A stretch of 47,763 bases of DNA from Acidimicrobiia bacterium (GTDB taxonomy: Bacteria; Actinomycetota; Acidimicrobiia; IMCC26256; DASPTH01). The stretch covers positions 3,852-51,614 of the forward strand of contig JBBDHW010000024.1 in assembly GCA_040880805.1 (NCBI GenBank), read 5' to 3'. Shown here piece after piece: positions 23,962 to 38,082 of the stretch. The notes beneath the pieces are model-generated. The model was not told where the DNA came from. It saw nothing but the letters and a program-made list of their open reading frames with translations, and did not search any database. Each line of letters opens with the position of its first letter. The stretch's first letter is position 1. The translations under genes and the position numbers were made by a program.

Positions 23962-24951
23962 TCAGCCCCAGATGTCGCGGACAACGTTGAGCACCACGCG
24001 TGAGCCGAGCCGGTCGAGCTTGACGGGCAGCTCGCGCATCTCCGACAAGCTCTCGCGCACCGCACCCTGCCGCTCGATCGGGCACAAGACGAGCAGGAAG
24101 CCTCCGCCGCCCGCACCGGTGACCTTGGCGCCGGAGGCGCCTCCTTCGAGCGCGCGCGCGACCGCCGCGTCGATGTGGTCGTTCGAAACGCCCGATGCCA
24201 ATTTCCGCTTGGCTGCCCAGCCCTCCCGGAGTGCGGTCCCCACGACTTCCATGTTCCCGCTCCGCAACCCCTCCGCGGCGATGCCGGCAAAATCGCGCAT
24301 GCGGTCGAGATGTGGGCGCGTGGTCGAGATGTTGTCGCGCTGTTCGCGGAGGATCGACTCGGCGCTCCTCGTGACGCCGGTGTAGAAGAGCATGAGCTGC
24401 TGCTGGAACGCCCGTCGAGCGGCCGCGCAGAGCCCGAGCTCCTGCGGGACCACCTGATCACCGGGGCCGAAGCGGATGTCCTGGATCCCGCCGAGCGCGG
24501 CGATGTACTGGTCCTGCTTGCCGATCGGCTTGCCGCAGCGTTCGATCTCGATGGTGCATGCCCGCTCTGCGAGCTCCTCAGCGCACACCGCGCGGCCCTG
24601 GTAGGCGAACAACGCGTGCAACAACCCGACGGTTACTGCAGAAGAGGACCCGAGACCCGAGCCCGCAGAGGGGATGTCTGCCAACGTGGTGATCTCGACG
24701 CCACTGGTCACGCCGGTCATCTGCATGGCCTCTCTGACGAGCTCGTGCTCGAGGTCTGCGACGCACGACACGATCTCCTTCTTCGAGTAGTTGACGTAGA
24801 TGTCGTCGTCGAAGCGCTGCTTCACGATGACATAGACGTACTTGTCGAGCGCGCAGTTGAGGACCCTGCCGCCGTGCTCGCGGTAGTAGTCGGGCAGGTC
24901 AGTGCCACCGCCGAGCAACCCGATGCGCAGAGGTGTCTGGGTGATGATCAT
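23962..24951 (-). CDS. hddA: GHMP kinase, D-glycero-D-manno-heptose 7-phosphate kinase type
   Basis: A 329-residue sugar kinase of the GHMP superfamily, closest in style to HddA, which phosphorylates C1 of D-glycero-alpha-D-manno-heptose 7-phosphate. The N-terminal 'TPLRIGLLGGGTDLPDYY' is the sugar-binding opening of this subgroup. 'SAGSGLGSSSAVTVGLLHAL' (about 92-111) is the ATP loop, and 'GAKVTGAGGGGFLLVL' the C-terminal glycine motif. GmhA- and GmhB-like genes lie upstream in the same operon, which supports the heptose assignment over galactokinase or fucokinase. ATG 24951 overlaps the stop of the preceding SDR gene. Confidence 0.82.
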   Translation of the reverse strand: MIITQTPLRIGLLGGGTDLPDYYREHGGRVLNCALDKYVYVIVKQRFDDDIYVNYSKKEIVSCVADLEHELVREAMQMTGVTSGVEITTLADIPSAGSGLGSSSAVTVGLLHALFAYQGRAVCAEELAERACTIEIERCGKPIGKQDQYIAALGGIQDIRFGPGDQVVPQELGLCAAARRAFQQQLMLFYTGVTRSAESILREQRDNISTTRPHLDRMRDFAGIAAEGLRSGNMEVVGTALREGWAAKRKLASGVSNDHIDAAVARALEGGASGAKVTGAGGGGFLLVLCPIERQGAVRESLSEMRELPVKLDRLGSRVVLNVVRDIWG

Positions 24952-26060
24952 CGTCGCGTCCTCCGGACGACTCCCAGTGATCGCATGCGTTCGTTGGCCC
25001 GAGCGAGCACGCCGTCGAGATCGGGCACCGTCTCGAGCCACTCGGCGTACGCCGCGACCGATTCGGCCGGTGTGTGCCGCGGTGCCCAGCCCAGTGTGGC
25101 AAGGGCGGCGATGTCCGAGAGTATGTGGCGTGTGTCACCGAATCGGTACTCGCCGGTTACGACCCCCGGGTGGTCGGACCCGTACTGGTGCATGACGATG
25201 TCGGAGAACTCGCGAGTCGTGACCGGCTTGCCCCCGCCGACGTTGAAGACCCGCCCAACAGCCTGCTCATTCTCCAGCACGAGAATGTTCGCGTCGACGA
25301 CGTCGTCGATGTTGACGTAGTCGCGGATCGACGCTCCATCTTCGTAGAGTGTCGGTGTTGCCCCCTGCCGGTAGCTCAGACAGAAGATGCGGCACGCACC
25401 CGAATACGCGTTGTACACCGACTGGCGCGGGCCCTGCACGATGCTGTACCGCAGCGCGACAGTCGGGATGTCGTACCTGCGCCCGACGTTGACGGCGATC
25501 ATCTCCTGGCCGAGCTTCGAGATTCCGTACGGGTTCTGTGGATTGGAGATCCACTCGGGAGTGGCCAGCACTTCCAGCGGCCCGCCGCACGCGCGGCACG
25601 GGATGTCCCACTGACCGGCGGCAATTGCAGCCTCGGAGCGCATCCCTGGAAGCTGCTCGCCGTCGAGTCGGCATTGGTAGAGCCCTTCACCCATGGCGGC
25701 TTGCGACGACGCGACGACGACGCGGGCGAGGTCGAGGCGTTCGCCGACGATGATCTCATAGAGCAGTGCTGTCGAGACGACGTTCACGTCGGAGAAGCGC
25801 GAGAAGTCGGTGAGATAGTCCTGGTACGCGGCGAAGTGGTACACGGCGTCCACGCGACGCAGCAGGTGCCTGACGAGGTCGCGGTTGCGGACGTCGCCCT
25901 CGACGAAGTCGATCTCGCGGTTGAGGTACGGCGGATGCCCGCATCGGTGAACCGGCGCGGTCAGCGCGTCGAGGACGACGACGTCGTGCCCGAGCGCGAG
26001 GAGCCGGTCGCTCGTGTGCGAGCCGATGAAGCCGGCGCCCCCGGTGACCAGGATCTTCAT
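24948..26060 (-). CDS. NAD-dependent sugar epimerase (SDR) with Cys-containing insert
   Basis: A 370-residue extended SDR enzyme acting on a nucleotide sugar. The N-terminal 'ILVTGGAGFIGSHTSDRLL' binds NAD, and the catalytic pair is in 'YGISKLGQE' (YxxxK) with an upstream 'ASSQAAMGEG' Ser. An insert between strand and YxxxK holds a CRACGG motif of the kind seen in dTDP-L-rhamnose 4-epimerase-like proteins. The later 'RYSIVQGPRQSVYNAYSG' and 'YEDGASIRDYVNIDDVV' are typical of 4-epimerases. The Ser-Ser-Gln site lacks the Asp-Glu pair of 4,6-dehydratases, so an epimerase or reductase is more likely. Both ends overlap neighbours by ATGA. The substrate may be the activated heptose. Confidence 0.82.
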   Translation of the reverse strand: MKILVTGGAGFIGSHTSDRLLALGHDVVVLDALTAPVHRCGHPPYLNREIDFVEGDVRNRDLVRHLLRRVDAVYHFAAYQDYLTDFSRFSDVNVVSTALLYEIIVGERLDLARVVVASSQAAMGEGLYQCRLDGEQLPGMRSEAAIAAGQWDIPCRACGGPLEVLATPEWISNPQNPYGISKLGQEMIAVNVGRRYDIPTVALRYSIVQGPRQSVYNAYSGACRIFCLSYRQGATPTLYEDGASIRDYVNIDDVVDANILVLENEQAVGRVFNVGGGKPVTTREFSDIVMHQYGSDHPGVVTGEYRFGDTRHILSDIAALATLGWAPRHTPAESVAAYAEWLETVPDLDGVLARANERMRSLGVVRRTRR

Positions 26061-27277
26061 CGGGCTGCGTGACGTCGGCGTTCGGCGACCTGGCGGTAGA
26101 CGTCGAGGGTGGACGCCGCCGTCGCTCCCCACGTGAACTGGGCCGCCCGCCGGAGTCCCTGGTCGCGCAAGCGCTCCGTCCCGGCGATCGCATCGACCAT
26201 TGCCTGGGCGATCGACGCCGGATCACTCGGGTCGGACAGGAGCGCGGCTCCGCCGGCGATCTCGGGCATGGCGCTCGTATTCGAGGTCACGACCGGGCAG
26301 CCGCACGCCATCGCCTCGAGGATGGGGAGGCCGAAGGTCTCGTTGAACGACGGATACACCAAGACGTCTGCAGCCTGGTAGAAGCGGGCAGTCACCTCGA
26401 GCGGGACACCGCCGACGAAGACGACATCTCCCGAGACGCCGAGTTCGGCGGCGAGAGCGCGCAGCCGTGCGACGTAGCGCTCGTCGCGTCCAGGGCCAAC
26501 GATGGCCAACTGACGATCTCCCAGCCTCGTTCGTGCCAGCGCCCAAGCCCGCAGCAGCCCATCGCAGTTCTTGTAGGGCCAGAGCGACGACACGAAGAGC
26601 GCGAAGGGCTTCGTGACGCCGTACGACGCCACGCGAGCGCGAGCCGCCGCCACATCGCCCGGTTTGAAGAGATCGTGGTCGACGGCCTCGTAGATCAGCT
26701 CGAGTTTCCGAGGATCGACCCGCAGGTACTCCTCGATCTCGGATCTCAAGCTCTCGGAGTTGATGATGATCGCGTCCGCGACCCGCGCCGAGCGCGGATA
26801 GCTCATCCGACGGTACGTGCGAGCCAACGGCGCTATCGAATCAGGTGCTGTGAAGGCGTGCATGGTCTTCATGTGGATGACGAGGGACCAGAACGGATTC
26901 ACGAGTGGCGCCATCAATGTGTTGAAGACGTCGATGCGGCTGAGCGGCAACCGTACGGGCGAGTAGAGGTGCTCGCTGAGCGTGCGCAGCGTGCGCCGTT
27001 CGTTCGACCACGGGTACGTGATCGAGAGGACGTTCGGCCCGTAGCCCTCGTATCCGTGGCGTGACTTCGGACTCACGAGCAGATACAGCTGCTCTCGTGG
27101 CTGGAGGCGCTGCGCCATCTCGGGGATCACGCGGGTCCAGAACCAGTGAGCGCCCGAGGGGTGGTCGGGATCGTCGGTCAACAGGTTGATCGCAACTCGC
27201 AACTCGCGCGGTTCGCCCTGCGAGCGGACCGTCGGAGCGCATTGCTCCCTCTCCGGGGCGCGCTGAGCGGTGACCAT
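26057..27277 (-). CDS. GT4 family glycosyltransferase
   Basis: A 406-residue retaining glycosyltransferase of the GT-B fold. The N-terminal acceptor half opens after a 25-residue polar start with 'LRVAINLLTDDPDHPSGAHWFW'. The donor half has 'FALFVSSLWPYKNCDGLLRAW', 'LAIVGPGRDERYV' and the GT4 Glu-containing 'NETFGLPILEAMACGCPVV'. It probably adds one sugar of the repeat unit on the cytoplasmic face of the membrane. ATG 27277 lies one base after the GmhA-like gene's stop, and the end overlaps the SDR gene. The donor could be the heptose nucleotide made by its neighbours, but this is context only. Confidence 0.88.
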   Translation of the reverse strand: MVTAQRAPEREQCAPTVRSQGEPRELRVAINLLTDDPDHPSGAHWFWTRVIPEMAQRLQPREQLYLLVSPKSRHGYEGYGPNVLSITYPWSNERRTLRTLSEHLYSPVRLPLSRIDVFNTLMAPLVNPFWSLVIHMKTMHAFTAPDSIAPLARTYRRMSYPRSARVADAIIINSESLRSEIEEYLRVDPRKLELIYEAVDHDLFKPGDVAAARARVASYGVTKPFALFVSSLWPYKNCDGLLRAWALARTRLGDRQLAIVGPGRDERYVARLRALAAELGVSGDVVFVGGVPLEVTARFYQAADVLVYPSFNETFGLPILEAMACGCPVVTSNTSAMPEIAGGAALLSDPSDPASIAQAMVDAIAGTERLRDQGLRRAAQFTWGATAASTLDVYRQVAERRRHAAR

Positions 27278-27278
27278 G

Positions 27279-27935
27279 TCAGAAGGTGCTCGACGAGATC
27301 GCGTCCGCCGTCATGCGTGACTGCCGGATGTATTGGGCCAGGGCGTGCATGACGGCTTCGTGGACGTCCTCGACAATGCCGTAGTTCGTCCCGTCGACGT
27401 GAACGGCGACGTCGGCGATCGCCCTGGCGTCACCTCCGTCGAAGCCGGTCAGCGCAATCGTGCGCAGGTCGTTGTCGCGGGCCCAAGCGAGGGCACGGAC
27501 GATGTTGCGAGAGCGCCCCGATGACGAGATGCCGATGAGGACGTCGCCCGGTCGCGACTGCGACTTCAGCTGGTATGCGAAGACTTCGTCGTACGCGATG
27601 TCGTTGGCGATCGCCGTGAGCAGTTCGATGTTGCTGCTGAGGCTCACGACGCGCGGAGACACGTCAGTCTCCGTGCGGATGCCCTTCACGTGATCGCATT
27701 GCAGATGGTTCGCGATCGCGGCCGAGCCACCATTGCCGCACGAGAAGACGTTCGTACCGCGCGTATAGGCTTTGAGCAGGATCGTTGCCGCACGGTCCAG
27801 CGCGTCTGGTTCGATCGAGCTCGCGGCGCGCACGAACTCCTCGCTGTACTCGCTGAAGTACGACGACGCGCTGTTGTACGGGGCCGTCGGGAACTTCGTC
27901 GGGGTGACGAGAGCCAGCGGCGCGAAGGCCCTCAT
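27279..27935 (-). CDS. gmhA: Sedoheptulose 7-phosphate isomerase-like SIS protein
   Basis: A 218-residue SIS-domain sugar isomerase of the GmhA group, which converts sedoheptulose 7-phosphate to D-glycero-D-manno-heptose 7-phosphate. It has 'FSCGNGGSAAIANHLQCDHVKG' (split here only for description; residues about 75-96) with the phosphate-binding Ser, 'LIGISSSGRSRNIVRAL' as second phosphate site, and 'GIVEDVHEAVMHALAQYI' carrying the metal/catalytic His and Glu near the C-terminus. ATG 27935 overlaps the preceding phosphatase stop (ATGA). Presence of kinase and phosphatase in the same operon makes the heptose pathway the best reading. Confidence 0.85.
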   Translation of the reverse strand: MRAFAPLALVTPTKFPTAPYNSASSYFSEYSEEFVRAASSIEPDALDRAATILLKAYTRGTNVFSCGNGGSAAIANHLQCDHVKGIRTETDVSPRVVSLSSNIELLTAIANDIAYDEVFAYQLKSQSRPGDVLIGISSSGRSRNIVRALAWARDNDLRTIALTGFDGGDARAIADVAVHVDGTNYGIVEDVHEAVMHALAQYIRQSRMTADAISSSTF

Positions 27936-28588
27936 CGCGCAATCCGCTCGAGTATGAACGAACTCGCGGCTGCGAGGCTCGGAAATGACCAGACGCCAGG
28001 ACGCTCGTCGTCGACGGCCCCGAGATGGATCGCTGACGCGCCCACCGCCGCGGCGAGGCCGACGTCCTCGGGACGGTCGCCGACGACCCACGACGATGCC
28101 AGGTCCAGATTCAACGCCGCGGCGGCCGCCTTGGCCATGCCCGGTCGCGGCTTGCGGTCCTCGCTCGTACGAGCGAAGGCCTCGACGATCCCTGCGGGGT
28201 GGTAGGGGCAGTAGAGGAACATGTCGACGTGCGCTCCGTGCTCTGCCAGACGCTCGGTGATGTGCTGGTGCACGCGAGCGACATCGTCGGTTTCGAACAG
28301 CCCTCGGGCGATGCCGGACTGGTTCGTCACCACCGCCACGGGGATCCTTGCCTGGTTGAACGCGGCAATCGCCTCGGGCGCGCCGTCGATCAATTCGACG
28401 CGGTCGACGGAACCGACGTAACCGTGGTCGACGATCAATGTCCCGTCGCGGTCGAGGAGGATCCCCGGTCGGGGAGCGACCGCCTCCTCTCCGCCGGCCG
28501 CGTCTGTCCGGTCGACGGTCGCGACGGAGTTCGCCGCCGTAGTGGCCACACCGGTCAGAGCGCGGTGGGCCGCCCCAGATACACGCAC
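27932..28588 (-). CDS. gmhB: HAD-IIIA heptose bisphosphate phosphatase-like protein
   Basis: A HAD phosphatase of the GmhB group that removes the C7 phosphate from heptose bisphosphate. The nucleophile motif is 'LLDRDGTLIVD'; then 'VVTNQSGIARGLF', a CxxH-type zinc-loop portion 'YCPYHP', 'RKPRPGMAKAAAAAL' and 'VVGDRPEDVGLA' follow. The core begins about 40 residues after the chosen start. The start is uncertain: GTG 28588 has AAAGG 6 bases upstream, while an ATG at 28678 would give 30 more residues but has a poor ribosome site. The N-terminal extension is Ala/Thr-rich and not conserved in the family. The gene overlaps gmhA by four bases. Confidence 0.82.
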   Translation of the reverse strand: MRVSGAAHRALTGVATTAANSVATVDRTDAAGGEEAVAPRPGILLDRDGTLIVDHGYVGSVDRVELIDGAPEAIAAFNQARIPVAVVTNQSGIARGLFETDDVARVHQHITERLAEHGAHVDMFLYCPYHPAGIVEAFARTSEDRKPRPGMAKAAAAALNLDLASSWVVGDRPEDVGLAAAVGASAIHLGAVDDERPGVWSFPSLAAASSFILERIAR

Positions 28589-28703
28589 CGGCGGCCTTTC
28601 AGCGGAGATGATGGCCTGGCAGCTCGAATCCTCGGGGGAGAGTCTGCATTTTTCGGCCCCGGAGCCCCGATCGAGCATGTTGGCCCCGAGCAGCAGAGCG
28701 CGG

Positions 28704-29460: not shown

Positions 29461-30015
29461 CTAACCCCGCGACAACAAGCCGGTTGCCACCGCCAGCGAC
29501 GGCGCAGACCGGTCCCGCTCGGACAGGGCGGCCACTGGGAGCGGCCACGGTATGGCGAGCTCAGGATCGTCGAACGCGATCGCGACCTCGTCGTTGGGGT
29601 CGTGCGGACGGTCGATGCGGTACGAGACGTCGGCAGGGTCGGTGAGAGCCTGGAACCCGTGGGCGCAGCCGGCGGGCACGTAGAGCGACGTCTGCTCGGA
29701 CCCCCGCAACTCGAAGCTCCGCCAGTTGCGGTAGGTCGGCGAGGCCGGCCGCAGGTCCACCACGACGTCGAAGACCGCGCCGTAGGAGCATCGAACGAGC
29801 TTGGACTCCCCCTCCCCGCGCCGCACGTGCAGGCCTCGCACCACGCCGCGGCTCGACCGGGAGATGCTGTCCTCGGCGAACGTCGACGGGTCGATCCCCG
29901 ATCTCCGCATGACCTCGGTGTCGAAGGTGCGGCAGAAGAAGCCGCGCTCGTCGGCGTGGGGCGCGGGCTCGAAAAGGTGCGCCCCGGCGATGCCCGCGAC
30001 TTGGACCACCTCCAT
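29461..30015 (-). CDS. rfbC: RmlC-type dTDP-4-keto-sugar 3,5-epimerase
   Basis: A 184-residue cupin-fold epimerase. The catalytic set of the family is in place: Arg60 and His63 ('VVRGLHVRRG'), Lys72, Tyr132 ('VSYRID') and Asp168 ('LSERDR'). The second conserved aromatic position, around residue 138, is His within 'RPHDPNDE', where the family normally has Tyr; this may change base or sugar binding. In a classical rhamnose set, rmlA, rmlB and rmlD would be near, but none is seen in this window. It may thus act on another 4-keto sugar, such as a modified heptose. It is encoded 12 bases after the GT2-pyruvyltransferase gene. The symbol reflects family only. Confidence 0.85.
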   Translation of the reverse strand: MEVVQVAGIAGAHLFEPAPHADERGFFCRTFDTEVMRRSGIDPSTFAEDSISRSSRGVVRGLHVRRGEGESKLVRCSYGAVFDVVVDLRPASPTYRNWRSFELRGSEQTSLYVPAGCAHGFQALTDPADVSYRIDRPHDPNDEVAIAFDDPELAIPWPLPVAALSERDRSAPSLAVATGLLSRG

Positions 30016-30027
30016 GAGACCTCCTCC

Positions 30028-32172
30028 CTACGCAGCGGGCGGGCGCATGCCGACGCCCCTGCACGGGTCGTGCTCGGAAAAGAGCACTGAGGACAACATG
30101 GAGAACTGCTCGCCGACCAGCGCCCCGTTGGTGTCGCTGCGCTCGGCGAGGGCGCGGCGCAGCTCGGGAGACCGGCGCTCCAGCTCTCCGAATCGCGCGA
30201 TGAGCTCGTCGCTGTGCAGCGCGCGGGCGGACAGCGCGAACTCCGACATGCCCATGTCGGCCATCAGCGCTTCGTGCTTGCTGCCGTAGCCGATCGAGAT
30301 GGTCGGCTTGGAGAGCTTGAGGGCGCAGACGACGTTGTGGTATCTCGTGGCGACGACGCTGCCGACGGACGCCATCTTCGCGATCAGCTCCCGCAGCGAG
30401 GAGCACCGCTCGGCGACGACCTGCCCCGGCTGCAGGTCCGGCCGGTGTGCTCGAACGTCGGCCAGGATCTCCTCCACGGTGCTGCCGTCCGCATCGTCAC
30501 CCCAGAACAGTCGGACCCGGCGATCGCCATCGACCAACCACCGGATGAAACGCTTCATCTCGCCGAGGTACCGGGCGTGGATCCGGTCGGCTTCGCGGCG
30601 GTCGTCGTTCCCGCCGTGGTACGCCATCACGCCCACCCCGACGGTCCTCGGGTCGCCGGGCTCGCCGGTGGGCGTGTCGAGACCGAAGACCAGGTCGGGA
30701 TAGATACGGCCGTCGGCGGGATCGATCCCCGACGCCCGCATCGCGTCCCACGAAGGGACGTCGCGATAGGAACGGTAGAAGGCCAGCCGGGCGGCGGAGT
30801 TGAGCAACCAACGAGTCGCCCGCTGGTTGACGGTCGTCGCACCGACGCTCACCAGCGCGATCTTCGTACCGAAGAGCCTTCCGGACGTGCAGAGGAGGAA
30901 GAGGGCGTAGGGCATGTGCCAGGGGCGCAGCGGGAGGGACGACTCCAGGAGGCCCGTGCCCGGCACGATCACGACATCGTGCCGGCGTACCCACGAGGCC
31001 GTCCGGAACGCGTCGACGCCCTTGCCGAGCACCTTGAGGACGATCGCCGGCACACCGGAACTCTGCTCCTCGTACCTGCTGTACCAGAGCAGCGGGATGG
31101 CCTCGACACCGTACTGGCGGCGTAGCCGATCCGGACTCTTGCACATGGCGTCCACGACCGCGCCGGTATGGCTGGCCTGGAGGTACGTGAGGACGACCTC
31201 GACGGAGGCGTCATTGCCGAGGTTGCCCGATCCGATGTGCCCGAACAGCCCGACCCGCGGAGCGGAACCGGCGGGCGGCGTCCGCTTGGCGACGCCCGCC
31301 TCGGCCTGCCGGGCGCGCCAGTCGCCGGTCCGTCTGAACAGCCACGTGGTCAGGTGCCGGTAGCACGCACGACGGTCGGCAGGCGAGAGCGGCGCCCGGT
31401 GAATGGCGGCGACATAAGCCCCGACGTACTCGCCGTAGAGGCGGGCGGCGGGGTTCCGGAGCCGGCTCGCCCGTCGCGGGTCCATGTTGGCGCACCGAGA
31501 ACGCACGGTCGGGCGCGCCCGCCCCGCGGGCTCGTCGTGGTCGCGCCGGAAGTACAGCCAATCGGGGACCTGGTAGAAGGGACCATGCAGGCTCAGCTCG
31601 GTGACGACGGTCCGGTCGGCGTGGTGGTGGCTCCCGTGCGGCATGACTCGGCGGAGAACGCGCGTCCAGACCACGCCGTAGATGTCGTCGCAGGTCCAGC
31701 TGTCGCACAGCATGCTCTCGAAGCGCTCCGGGGCCCGCAGCGACGACGTGGCGAGCGGGTATTCGAGGGCATGGGTGACATTGCCGGCCCGGTCGATCTT
31801 GGCCGTCCACGAGTGCGCGAGCACGACGCGGGGGTCGGCGTCGAGCGCCGCCACGCAGCGCTCGAGCAGGTCAGGGCCGTAGACGTCGTCGCCGGACGCC
31901 CACTTGAACAGCTCTCCCCGGGCACGCTCGAGGACGAAGTTGTGGTTCGCGGCGAGGCCGATGTTGCGTGCCTGGCGGAAGTAACGGACCCGCGGGTCCT
32001 GTCGCTCGTAGCGGCGGCAGATCTCGGCGGTTCGATCGGTCGAGGCGTTGTCGGAGATGATCAGCTCGAAGTCGCCATAGCTCTGCTCGAGGAGGGTGTC
32101 GAGCGACTTCGACACGGTGAGCTCGGCGTTGCAGACGGGAAGTCCGATGCTCAGGCGCGGTGGCGTGCCCAT
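30028..32172 (-). CDS. GT2 glycosyltransferase - polysaccharide pyruvyltransferase fusion
   Basis: A 714-residue fusion. Residues 1-290 are a GT2 (GT-A) glycosyltransferase: '[21 protein letters not shown]', '[16 protein letters not shown]' and the metal-binding 'WASGDDVYG' with Asp95-Asp96. Residues about 305-714 form a polysaccharide pyruvyltransferase: '[21 protein letters not shown]', '[10 protein letters not shown]', and '[30 protein letters not shown]'-like C-terminal motif with the conserved His. Together they could add a sugar and ketalise it with pyruvate from phosphoenolpyruvate. ATG 32172, with GGGAGG upstream, overlaps the 3' end of the upstream SDR gene by 22 bases. The frame is clean through the junction. 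Confidence 0.85.
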
Positions 32173-33227
32173 GTCCTCGCCTCCCACCACTCGGGCGCCT
32201 GCACACGCAGTAGCTCGTCGACCAGCCCGGCCGAGCGCAGCTCCTCGATTCGCCGGAGCCGCACGAACCGCGACGAGACAACGTCGTCGTGGGTGAGGCG
32301 GAACCGCGTGTAGGCGTCGATCAGCTCGTCGACCCCGAGCCGCACGTTCCAACGAAGGACAAGCCCCGGAAAGGTGTCGGCGAGCCTCGAGAAGTCGACG
32401 CAGTAGCTGCGCCGGTCCGGGCCGGCGCCGTCGGCGAGCGACACCTTCGATCCCGGCACGGCCTCGCCGACCAGGTCCGCGATGTCGCGCACTTGCACGT
32501 TGTCCTGCGGCCGGCCGACGTTGAACGCCTCGTCGTGGACCAATTGCCGCGGAGAATCCAGGGCGGCCGCGAACGTGCGGCAGATGTCTTCCACGTGCAC
32601 GAGCGGACGCCATGGCGAACCGTCGCTCTCCAGGCGCACCGCTCCGGTCGTCATGGCCACGGCCGCCAGGTTGTTCACGACGATGTCGAGACGCAGCCGA
32701 GGCGAGGTGCCATAGGCGGTCGCGTTGCGTAGGTACGTCGGGCTGAAGGTGTCGTCGGCCAGCCGCGACAGGCCCCGCTCGGCCACGACCTTGGACGTGC
32801 CGTACGGGGTGACGGGGTGCAACTCGGCATCCTCGGCCACCGCACGAGAGCCGGCCGCGCCGTAGAGGCTGCACGACGACGCGAAGAGGAAGCGTTCGAC
32901 ACCGGCATGCTTCGCCGCGCGGGCCAGGTTCAACGTGCCGTCCACGTTCACCGAGTAGGTGGTCGCGGGGTTGACGTCGCCGAGCGGGTCATTGGACAAC
33001 GCCGCGAGGCAGATCACGGCGTCGTAGCCGGCCAGGTGGCACGCGCGCGCGTCCCGGAGGTCGAGCGGGATGCGCCGGTCGAGGTCGTCCGGGACCGGAC
33101 CGAAATCGCAACCGTCGTAGAGACCGATGTCGAGGCCCGTTACCTCGTGCCCGTTCGCCCGCAGGAAGGGAACCATGACGGCGCCGATGTAGCCGCGGTC
33201 ACCTGCAACAAGGACCTTCATCGCCAT
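32151..33227 (-). CDS. NAD-dependent epimerase/dehydratase (SDR)
   Basis: A 358-residue extended SDR enzyme. The NAD site is '[19 protein letters not shown]', with Asp in place of the usual second-position Gly of GGxGxxG. The active site has 'FASSCSLYG' and 'YGTSKVVAE' (YxxxK). Further family marks are '[22 protein letters not shown]' and '[15 protein letters not shown]'. The lack of a Thr-Asp-Glu site argues against a 4,6-dehydratase. Relatives occur beside RfbF-like nucleotidyltransferases and zinc-type C-methyltransferases, as here. ATG 33227 is used; ATG 33221 is equally possible. The substrate is unknown. Confidence 0.82.
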
Positions 33228-33254
33228 CCCATCGGTCTCGCTCCCGCCCGCCTC

Positions 33255-33277
33255 CCGCCTCTTGAACAAGAGGGCGG
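33255..33277. other. Hairpin inside block C
   Basis: CCGCCTCTT and AAGAGGGCGG pair around a GAAC loop with a single bulged base. The element lies in the only sizeable gap in the first half of the operon (33228-33321). It has no T-tract on either strand, so it may be an RNA-processing or partial termination site that lowers expression of the genes from 33227 on. Confidence 0.45.
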
Positions 33278-33321: not shown

Positions 33322-35274
33322 TCAGGCGCCGAGCGCCTCGATGTCCACCCACTTGCCGCCGCACGCCTCGACGCCCGGAAGGGCCGCCCGTACCTCTGCG
33401 AGCAGCTCGGGCAGGAAGAGGAGTACCGACTCGGGCCGGGCGGCGGCGAGGCGCGAGGGTTCGACGATGGGAATGTCGGTGCCGGGCATCCGGCAGCCCT
33501 GCTTGGCGGGCGAGGCATCGGCAACCGCGGGCAGGAGTTCCCTGTCGACCCCCGCGCTGACCAGCAGGGCGGTGGCACGTGAGGCTGCGCCGTAACCGAT
33601 GACGGACCTCCCGGCGCGCCGCTCCGTCACCAGCCAATCGTGCAGTGTGCGGGCACTGGCGTGCGCCCGGTCCTTCAGACCGTTGAGCACGGTTGGATCG
33701 CGTACTCCGGCACGGGCCTCCGCGGTAAGGACGGACTGCACCGAGGCATGAGGCTCGCACCGTGCGTCGGCATTCCGGCCTGCCGCCATCAACACCGTGC
33801 CCCCGTACAGTTCGAACTGCCACACCCGGCGCGGGGACCACCCTTCGGCGGCCAGCATGCTCGTCAACGCGGTCGTCGAGTAGTAGGCGTAGTGGCCGTG
33901 CCGAAGCGCGTTCCACTGTCCGAGGCGGACAATCGCCTGAAGCGAGTGATATTGCAGCAGCAGGTGGCCACCCGGCGTGACCCGCGAGACTCGCTCCGCG
34001 AGAGCCGCCGACTGGTCCGCGCCATGCATCATCCCGAAGCAGTCGAGGACGAGGTCGGCCGGTTGACCAGCCCCTACCGGAACCAGGCCGCGATCTTCCA
34101 GCAGTTCTCGCCACGAGCCGCCGTGCGGGCTGCCGTACTCCGCGACACTCGCTCCCTTCGACAGGAGCCCGTCGGAGGCCAAACGCTCGATGGCGTCTCT
34201 CGCCTGGGCGACGAGGGCCGCCGGCTCGACCCCCCTCGGTTCCTCGGGCACGGTGGGGTCCCCGACCAGCTGGGCGAGGCCACACGCGGAGCACAGCCAC
34301 ATCTGCAGGGGGTACGCCGGGTCCGGCTGCGGGTCGCCGGCCCGCGGGAAGTGGTCGCACGGGGGCTGGTCCCCCAGATCCAGCACCAGATCTCCGGATC
34401 GTCCGCCACACGCCCGGCACGCGACTTCACGCACTCCTCCCGTCCTCTCGAGTCCTCGATCGGCGCGGCCCATCGACTGCAACGTCTCGAGCGATGCACG
34501 AGCCAGGGGACCGATCCTGCCGCCGGACGCCCCCCTGGCCTCGAGGAGCTGCAGGGCGTTGGTCACGTCCTTGTGCAACATCCGATGGGTGTTCTGCACG
34601 TGCTCGGGGCTCTCGAGACCGGTTCCCAACCGTCCCCCCACAAAACCTCGGTAGGGGAAGTCGGTGAAGAACTCTGTGAGTACCTCCGACTCGATCCCGC
34701 ACTCGCTCCCGACCAGCATGGCGTCGTGCACGATCTCGACGTTGGCCGCGTAGAGGAGATTGAAGAGCAGCTTCACCTGCTGTCCGGACCCGAGCGCGCC
34801 GCAGTGCCGGATCAACCCCCCGTAGGCTTCGAGCAGCGGCCGGCAACGTTGGAGGAGCGCCTCGTCGCCTCCCACGGGGATCGGCAGCGTGCCGGCGGCG
34901 GCGCTCGTCGGTCCCCCGCAGAGCGGCGCGTCCAGCACGCCGACCTTGTATCGGTCGGCGAGCGCGGCGACACGCCTGCATCCCTCCGGTCGCATCGTGC
35001 TGTGCAGGATGAGCACGCTGCCTTCGCTCATCCCGTGAAGCAGCCCACCCTTGCAGACCTCGAGCACGTCAGGCTCGTCGGTTACGCACAGGCACACGAC
35101 GTCCGACGCAGCACCGAGCTCCACCAGGTTGGTGGCGACCCGCGCCCGCGTACCGCCGAAGGGTTCCAGTGATGACGGGCGTCGTGCCCACACCGTGAAG
35201 GGGAAGCCGGCTGCCAAGACACGCAAGGCCATCGGTGTACCCAGACGCCCGACGCCGACGAAACCGACGCGCAT
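33322..35274 (-). CDS. 3-hydroxyisobutyrate-dehydrogenase-like - C-methyltransferase-like fusion
   Basis: A 650-residue fusion. Residues 1-270 follow the beta-hydroxyacid dehydrogenase plan: '[14 protein letters not shown]' (NAD(P) site), '[17 protein letters not shown]' and the catalytic Lys168 in '[14 protein letters not shown]'. Residues 285-335 are the zinc-binding module of NDP-sugar C-methyltransferases (Cys286, Cys289, Cys328, Cys331). Residues 350-650 carry a SAM-methyltransferase-like domain with a reduced glycine loop ('[14 protein letters not shown]') and the C-terminal second Rossmann-like module ('[12 protein letters not shown]', '[15 protein letters not shown]'). ATG 35274 lies 10 bases after the deacetylase gene; an upstream ATG at 35313 would overlap it. 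The dehydrogenase could oxidise or reduce the sugar that the other half methylates. Confidence 0.85.
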
Positions 35275-35968: not shown

Positions 35969-36835
35969 TCAGCTCGGCACAGCGTCGGCCAACGGCCGGT
36001 GGCCGTTCGAGGCGCTCGGGGGTGGACTGCCGTACACCGGTCCGGTCCTCCCGGATCGCTCAGGGTCCCAGATCATCCAGGGGCTCTCGGCGCGGTCGTA
36101 CATCTCCTCGAGCTGCGCGCGCTCCTTCACGGTGTCGGCGGGCGACCAGTATCCCTTGTAGGGGTAGGCGAGCACGCGTCCCTTGCCGACCAGCCGCGCC
36201 AGAGCCTCCTCGACGAGGTCCTCGTCTTCGGTCAGCTCGTCGAAGATCGCCGCCCGGAACAGGAAGTAGCCACCGTTCTCCCAGTAGCGCAGGTCGCGCA
36301 TGGGGGTGATGCTGGTGACCAGGCCCTCGTCGTCGATGTCCACGGCGTGGTGCGATGACTGGGGAGGCACCGCCAGCAGTCCGGCGACCGCGCTGCTCGC
36401 CCGGAAGCGCTCGATCATGTCGGGAAGCGGCGCATCGGTGAGGACGTCGGCGTAGTTCGCGAGGAACATGGGTTCGTCCGCGACAAACCGCTGGACCCGG
36501 CGCAGCCGTTCGCCGATCGGCGAGCTGAGGCCGGTGTCGACGAAGGTGATGCGCCAGTCGGCGATGTCGGTCTTGAACAGGGTCACCTCGCGCGCGCCCT
36601 TCTCCAGGACGAAATCGTTGGACTTGGTCTCGTCGTACTGGAGGAAGAAGTCCTTGACCGCCGACGCGCCGTAGCCCAGGCAGAGCACGAAGTCGGTGTG
36701 CCCGAAGTAGGCGTAGTAGCGCATGACGTGCCAGAGGAGCGGGCGCTCCCCGACGAGCGCCATCGGCTTGGGCGCGCTGGTGACACCGTCGCGCATTCGC
36801 ATCCCGAGGCCTCCACAGAACAGCACGACCTTCAC
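35969..36835 (-). CDS. RfbF-like sugar-1-phosphate cytidylyltransferase
   Basis: A 288-residue nucleotidyltransferase of the glucose-1-phosphate cytidylyltransferase type. The start motif 'VVLFCGGLGMRMRDG' is followed by 'KPMALVGERPLLWHVMRYYAYFGHTDFVLCLGY', which is characteristic for RfbF rather than for RmlA or ManC. A long insert with 'GEREV'-like strands and 'VDTGLSSPIGERLRRV' follows, then 'ENGGYFLFRAAIFD' and 'KGYWSPADTVKERAQLE'. It would couple CTP with a sugar 1-phosphate. GTG 36835 is preferred since GAGG lies 8 bases upstream; a GTG at 36844 is possible. It is the only nucleotidyltransferase in the window, so it may activate the heptose 1-phosphate. Confidence 0.82.
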   Translation of the reverse strand: MKVVLFCGGLGMRMRDGVTSAPKPMALVGERPLLWHVMRYYAYFGHTDFVLCLGYGASAVKDFFLQYDETKSNDFVLEKGAREVTLFKTDIADWRITFVDTGLSSPIGERLRRVQRFVADEPMFLANYADVLTDAPLPDMIERFRASSAVAGLLAVPPQSSHHAVDIDDEGLVTSITPMRDLRYWENGGYFLFRAAIFDELTEDEDLVEEALARLVGKGRVLAYPYKGYWSPADTVKERAQLEEMYDRAESPWMIWDPERSGRTGPVYGSPPPSASNGHRPLADAVPS

Positions 36836-36849
36836 GATGAACACCTCAT

Positions 36850-38082
36850 TCAGATGATCTCCAGTTCGGGGATCGGGACGACGAGCCGACAGCCCCAGGA
36901 CCGGACGTAGTCGAGCTGCCGGCTGATCTCGTCGCGGAGGTTCCAGGGCAGGACGAGGATGTAGTCGGGCTTGGTCTCGGCGAGGTGATCGGGGGAGTAG
37001 ACGGGGATGTGGGTTCCGGGCAGGAACTTCCCCTGCTTCGTGGGGCTGCGATCAACGGTGTAAGCGAGCAGGTCCGACCGGATGCCGCAGTGGTTGAGCA
37101 GCGTGTTCCCCTTGCCCGGAGCGCCGTAGCCCGCGACCGACCAGCCCGTGGCGGCCGCCCCCAGCAAGAACCCGACCAGGTCACTCTTGATCTTCCTCAC
37201 CTGCGCGGCAAAGCCGGCGTGCCCCTCCAGGGTGGACAGCCCCGCGCGGTCCTCGTCCTCGAGGACCTCCTTCACCCGAACGCCCGGCTCACCGGCGCTC
37301 TCCTCCGGACGGGCGTGGACCCGCAGCGAGCCGCCGTGGGTGTCGAGCTGCTCCACGTCCACGACCCGCAGGCCTGCCGTGCGCAGCGCGCACGACGACG
37401 TCCGCATGGTCAGGTACGAGTAGTGCTCGTGGTAGATCGTGTCGTACTGGGACCCCGCGATGAGGCGGAGGAGGTGCGGGAACTCGAGGGTGACCAGGCC
37501 GGTGTCCTTGACCAGGGCTCGCAGCCCGGCGGCAAAACCACGAATGTCGGGTACGTGTGCGAAGACGTTGTTGGCGACCACGAGATCGGCGCGGCCGTGC
37601 TCGCGTGCGATCTCATGACCGGTCCGGGAGCCGAGGAACTCGACGATGGTCCGCACGCCGCGGGCACGCGCCGCCTCTGCGACGTTGGCCGCCGGCTCGA
37701 CGCCGAGGACCGGGATCCCGGAGGCCACGAAGTGCTGCAGGAGGTAACCGTCGTTGCTGGCCACCTCCGTCACCAGGCTGCCGGAGGCCAGACCGAGCTG
37801 CTCGATCATCGCCTCCGCGTAGCGCTCGGCGTGCACCACCCAGGAATCGGCATACGACGAGAAGTAGGCGTAGTCCGAGAAGATTTCCTCTCCGGGCACG
37901 TAGCCGGGGAGCTGCACCAGTAGGCAGGACGGACACTGGCGAACGTGGAGCGGGTAGAAGACCTCGGGCTCGTCGAGCTGCTCGGCTGCCACGTAGCTCT
38001 CGCACAGCGGCGACATCCCGAGGTCGACGAAGGTGTGCGTGAGGTCGGCACCGCAGAGGCGGCACGCGCACTTGGACGGCAT
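36850..38082 (-). CDS. Zinc-binding class I C-methyltransferase (NDP-sugar type)
   Basis: A 410-residue SAM-dependent methyltransferase of the TylC3/NovU-like plan. An N-terminal zinc module (Cys7, Cys10, Cys50, Cys53) precedes the SAM domain with 'VTEVASNDGYLLQHFVASG' (about 104-122) and 'NNVFAHVPDI'. The 'YHEHYSYL' segment carries the His residues used for catalysis in relatives. The C-terminal module opens with 'GYGAPGKGNTLLNHCGI' and 'VDRSPTKQGKFLPGT'. Such enzymes methylate a ring carbon of 4-keto nucleotide sugars. ATG 38082 follows a GGGAG site. It is the first gene of block C and lies back to back with the flippase gene. Confidence 0.87.
   Translation of the reverse strand: MPSKCACRLCGADLTHTFVDLGMSPLCESYVAAEQLDEPEVFYPLHVRQCPSCLLVQLPGYVPGEEIFSDYAYFSSYADSWVVHAERYAEAMIEQLGLASGSLVTEVASNDGYLLQHFVASGIPVLGVEPAANVAEAARARGVRTIVEFLGSRTGHEIAREHGRADLVVANNVFAHVPDIRGFAAGLRALVKDTGLVTLEFPHLLRLIAGSQYDTIYHEHYSYLTMRTSSCALRTAGLRVVDVEQLDTHGGSLRVHARPEESAGEPGVRVKEVLEDEDRAGLSTLEGHAGFAAQVRKIKSDLVGFLLGAAATGWSVAGYGAPGKGNTLLNHCGIRSDLLAYTVDRSPTKQGKFLPGTHIPVYSPDHLAETKPDYILVLPWNLRDEISRQLDYVRSWGCRLVVPIPELEII

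Follow-up and report, generated by a model that had tools for sequence, protein, structure and literature searches.

The gene on the minus strand at positions 33322-35274 raises the question of whether a dehydrogenase and a protein of the sugar C-methyltransferase type are truly joined in one polypeptide, and what such a protein would do. The window, by which we mean the whole analyzed stretch of 47,763 nucleotides, comes from a 3.49-Mb draft genome of an Acidimicrobiia bacterium (69 contigs, 95% complete). A single unbroken frame of 650 codons, without an internal stop, runs on the minus strand from the ATG at 35274 to the stop at 33324-33322, and the plus strand of this interval does not encode the fusion gene. 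The parts of the gene are listed here with the evidence for each; MT2 is a name coined in this analysis.

33322..35274, minus strand: whole fusion gene (HIBADH-like dehydrogenase::MT2), 650 aa; open frame and Pfam
34471..35274, minus strand: dehydrogenase half, residues 1 to about 268; Pfam, alignment, model and Foldseek
34435..34470, minus strand: linker, residues 269-280, 12 residues of low pLDDT; alignment and model
33325..34434, minus strand: MT2 half, residues 281-650; Pfam, alignments, model and Foldseek
34432..34447, minus strand: GAGGA (34447-34443), 8 nt, then GTG (34434-34432, codon 281), where stand-alone MT2 proteins normally begin

The order of domains that had been read from the sequence alone, a dehydrogenase followed by a methyltransferase-type half in one frame, was borne out by Pfam, since NAD_binding_2 (residues 2-158, E 5.5e-33, 114.7 bits), NAD_binding_11 (residues 162-250, 31.5 bits against a cut-off of 30), Methyltransf_13 (residues 286-336, E 2.7e-13, 50.3 bits) and Methyltransf_14 (residues 490-643, E 2.4e-33, 115.6 bits against a cut-off of 23.5) all scored above their cut-offs. 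Methyltransf_23 gave a partial match to residues 415-480, under its cut-off. The dehydrogenase aligns to about residue 268, near the C-termini of its relatives, and MT2 starts at residue 281. The GAGGA and GTG281 at this point form the sole in-frame combination of a Shine-Dalgarno sequence and a start codon within the fusion open reading frame, and codon shuffling of codons 276-284 gave a probability of about 0.02 for a Shine-Dalgarno-like start at this place. The sequence of the junction suggests that two genes were joined end to end with the start of the second retained, and MT2 may also be translated alone from GTG281. A TGA in one of the shifted frames overlaps the MT2 start, GTGCGTGA. This overlap would be compatible with two separate, overlapping genes that only appear fused because the linker of 36 nt contains a one-base error from sequencing or assembly, as would the draft state of the genome with its 69 contigs and the absence of the fusion from other genomes. 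However, no stop interrupts the frame, G+C at third codon positions has a coding-like value of 0.83 on either side of the joint, the gene, which is single-copy in the genome, lies inside a 134-kb contig and not at its edge, and errors break genes more often than they join them, so that we consider such an artifact very unlikely. The fusion gene is a real, rare combination of known parts.

An architecture search agreed with the earlier statement that no described sugar pathway enzyme with this domain order is known, as no second fusion was found among about 1,600 genomes, although the scan of genome contigs, made with short exact peptides, counts as a weak negative. Likewise, none was present in 72,556 plasmid records or in viral contigs. 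Rhizobium plasmid matches (H4 and similar) that seemed to span both halves were confirmed for the dehydrogenase part alone when the locus was examined.

The dehydrogenase half carries the motifs GxGxxG (as GVGRLG), WARR, HST..P and DAPLCGG, the residues Lys168 and Asn172, and KDV at 235-237. Lys168, already proposed as catalytic by the sequence-only reading, is invariant together with Asn172 (KxxxN) in an alignment with seven relatives, which also share the cofactor loop, WARR and the KDV near the C-terminus; the basic residues of WARR suggest a cofactor of the NADP type. A Rossmann domain followed by an all-alpha domain, the arrangement of the beta-hydroxyacid dehydrogenase superfamily, was found by Pfam, in the AlphaFold2 model (pLDDT 84) and with Foldseek, which placed L-serine and 3-hydroxyisobutyrate dehydrogenases nearest among solved structures; the two halves were modeled separately, the combined alignment having misplaced the dehydrogenases. 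On predicted fold and catalytic residues the placement in this superfamily stands. With the 3-hydroxyisobutyrate, tartronate semialdehyde and L-serine 3-dehydrogenase family (PDB 3w6u, 1vpd, 3qha) the first half shares NAD_binding_2, NAD_binding_11, Lys168/Asn172, GxGxxG and the fold, but it differs from this family in its C-terminal fusion, in three changes of the pocket and in remaining under all NCBIfam equivalog cut-offs. In NCBIfam it lies near tartronate-semialdehyde reductase and 3-hydroxyisobutyrate dehydrogenase, with a best score of 121 against a required 341 bits and, for the 3-hydroxyisobutyrate dehydrogenase equivalog TIGR01692, 104.9 bits against 291.6. The substrate motifs DAPVSGG and KxxNN, which are a subfamily-level feature, are not kept: the Ser of the former is replaced by Cys119 (DAPLCGG), the first Asn of the latter by Phe171 (KLLFN), and the GSAxS of the seven relatives by FPYRG. 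These changes in the pocket could reflect either a new substrate or decay.

The second half resembles the sugar C-methyltransferases TcaB9, KijD1 and MtmC (PDB 3ndi, 5t64, 4rv9) in its zinc module, three-domain fold and C-terminal domain and in two active-site histidines. The four cysteines of the zinc module, noted earlier from the sequence, are present within Methyltransf_13 (Cys 286, 289, 328 and 331), the C-terminal Methyltransf_14 domain is intact, and the AlphaFold2 model (pLDDT 89) has these three enzymes as its nearest structures (Foldseek E 1e-27 to 1e-30). Unlike them, however, it lacks the NDG motif, the segment bearing Y76 and about 35 residues of the core, carries Arg for Y222 and Gly for E224, and is fused to a dehydrogenase. 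HGGSW stands in place of NDG and RHGH in place of YHEH, whereas both canonical motifs are invariant in 23 of 23 canonical relatives. The SAM site that defines an NDP-sugar C-methyltransferase is accordingly missing and the SAM-binding core incomplete, with Methyltransf_23 only partial, and of the TcaB9 active-site set Y76, H181, Y222, E224 and H225 (numbering mapped via the E-to-Q change in 4e2y and the titles of mutant entries) the two histidines alone are left. The reduced SAM glycine loop described in the sequence-only reading was therefore confirmed, while its label of a zinc-type sugar C-methyltransferase proved too strong.

Stand-alone relatives of this half are about 370 aa long and mostly 49-62% identical to it (best 62%). 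They occur on plasmids of Pseudonocardia, Tsukamurella and Gordonia, in Mobilicoccus and in more than 100 further genomes from this phylum; the organisms named are Actinomycetota. Among 29 distinct aligned members, the fusion included, NDG was found in none; HxG[ST]W takes its place (one member has HSG.W), RxGH replaces YHEH in 29/29, and His137 and His181 (MT2 numbering), the equivalents of TcaB9 H181 and H225, are invariant in 29/29, while the SAM core of the aligned members is shorter by about 35 residues. Judged by these alignments, MT2 is a family of actinobacterial proteins that descends from NDP-sugar C-methyltransferases; its members no longer have the motifs of the SAM site but retain the zinc module, the C-terminal domain and two active-site histidines, and we infer that the loss of SAM binding is a family-wide property older than the fusion. 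Simple decay is disfavored because the new motifs are strongly conserved. The earlier suggestion of a new role for the second half holds insofar as the role apparently differs, but this role would predate the fusion because the same loss is seen in every aligned stand-alone relative. A loss of the SAM site caused by the fusion is ruled out on the same grounds, and the more specific proposal that the half was altered to present substrate to the dehydrogenase is not supported, as the loss also occurs in genomes with no adjacent dehydrogenase. If the second half could still transfer methyl groups by means of an atypical SAM site, the protein would be a bifunctional C-methyltransferase/ketoreductase, a reading that would fit the overall fold shared with KijD1, TcaB9 and MtmC (TM 0.81-0.90) and the retention of both active-site histidines. 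In contrast, NDG, the acidic VEP segment and the roughly 35 core residues are missing from the aligned members, Y222 and E224 are replaced, and a complete enzyme, MT1, is already encoded in the cluster; we regard continued methylation by this half as extremely improbable.

The stand-alone proteins WP_085916396.1 (Pseudonocardia) and WP_068740425.1 (Tsukamurella) have HxG[ST]W, RxGH and the sugar cluster in common with the fusion but, unlike it, consist of about 370 aa alone, none with a dehydrogenase domain. Both are annotated merely as methyltransferase-domain proteins, and no relevant paper on MT2 or its sugar cluster was found in the open-access literature, subscription journals lying outside the search. 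The more general point is the MT2 family itself, which is widespread in actinobacteria, annotated as methyltransferase and, by its sequence, very probably unable to methylate, a misannotation that affects how branched-sugar pathways are predicted for mycobacteria-like actinobacteria.

The genes around the fusion in the window are the following.

36850..38082, minus strand: MT1, a complete homologue of SAM-dependent sugar C-methyltransferases that retains NDG and YHEH, in the same run of genes upstream of the fusion
35969..36835, minus strand: RfbF-like sugar-1-phosphate nucleotidyltransferase, by profile score
35285..35941, minus strand: PIG-L-family protein, ending 10 nt ahead of the fusion ATG (Pfam)
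32151..33221, minus strand: SDR/epimerase-family protein, the next gene downstream of the fusion (Pfam)
29461..30015, minus strand: RfbC-like dTDP-4-dehydrorhamnose 3,5-epimerase family protein, a usual neighbor of MT2 elsewhere (Pfam)

MT1 is found in 15 of the 16 MT2 neighborhoods compared, which usually also hold RfbF-like, PIG-L, SDR and RfbC genes, and six of them also contain a gene whose annotation elsewhere is glutamate-1-semialdehyde aminomutase. The conserved cluster of which MT2 is part has the composition MT1-RfbF-PIG-L-SDR-RfbC(-aminomutase-like); the window retains MT1, RfbF, PIG-L, MT2, SDR and RfbC, and the fusion gene belongs to a cell-surface sugar cluster. Against TIGR02623 (glucose-1-phosphate cytidylyltransferase; cut-off 300) the RfbF-like protein reaches 195 bits, and no CDP-glucose 4,6-dehydratase above the TIGR02622 cut-off was found in the whole genome. 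Complete C-methyltransferase homologues are also common in IMG/VR viral contigs, with 179 matching stretches (L120-L199). A HIBADH homologue, by contrast with the conserved genes, lies near MT2 in 0/16 neighborhoods, so that no gene-neighbor link between dehydrogenase and MT2 was found in these loci; the dehydrogenase is a newcomer to the cluster. Its nearest relatives (about 37-49% identity), from the same class and from a large family within its phylum, have a thiolase/lipid-transfer protein, P450, hydrolase and SDRs as neighbors and no sugar genes (domain names were checked for locus L108 alone, the other loci being assessed by reading), and these loci are of a catabolic type. At loci L106, L108 and L109 the nearest dehydrogenases form tandem pairs of diverged HIBADH homologues, and the pair at L108 adjoins thiolase-like and P450 genes.

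In our reading, to which we assign a probability of about 0.6, two genes were truly joined end to end, specifically in this lineage and most likely recently, and the product links an NADP(H) dehydrogenase to a non-methylating MT2 module binding sugar nucleotides. A dehydrogenase of the 3-hydroxyisobutyrate/tartronate-semialdehyde type would have been joined 12 residues ahead of the natural MT2 start; the MT2 half would hold a nucleotide-linked keto sugar produced by the cluster, its two kept histidines perhaps serving a non-methylating enolate chemistry, and the dehydrogenase joined to it would oxidize or reduce a group of the held sugar or of its small-acid substituent. The coupling of the two steps is inferred from the fusion and its context; the presence of a dehydrogenase in the same protein limits the likely chemistry of the MT2 step to oxidation or reduction. 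There is no sign of selection keeping the fusion, because no second genome has it, nor is there an independent link between the two activities, because none of the 16 MT2 loci has a dehydrogenase and the nearest dehydrogenases sit in catabolic-type loci. The main rival is a run-on protein with independent halves, in which the stop of a dehydrogenase gene that had come to lie upstream of MT2 was lost while MT2 kept its ancestral job, being made both as part of the fusion and from GTG281. The end-to-end joint with its short, disordered linker and retained ribosome-site-like GTG, the single occurrence of the fusion and the missing neighborhood link between the two families are all in line with such a run-on; yet both halves retain their full fold and their catalytic or family motifs, and the altered dehydrogenase pocket suggests a new substrate, so that we consider the run-on unlikely. 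A bolder version of the tethered-fusion reading, which we hold to be quite unlikely, would see in MT2 an unrecognized family whose sugar C-methyltransferase scaffold was turned to a SAM-free keto-sugar reaction (epimerization, isomerization or elimination via the kept histidines), and the dehydrogenase fused to it here would be the first of the beta-hydroxyacid type known with a nucleotide sugar as substrate.

Several further features were seen on the minus strand downstream of the fusion. The gap of about 100 nt that separates the fusion from the SDR gene contains a GC-rich hairpin at 33254-33277, ccgccctcttgttcaagaggcggg, in a region with a z-score of -2.1 and without a T-run, which is possibly an attenuator or a processing site. 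Another joined open reading frame, at 30028-32172 (714 aa), encodes a GT2-type glycosyltransferase and, in frame after it, a CsaB-like polysaccharide pyruvyl transferase. Further downstream, past the sugar cluster, at 23962-28678, lie genes that by reading are of the heptose type, namely a GmhA-like isomerase, a GmhB-like phosphatase, a GHMP kinase and an epimerase.
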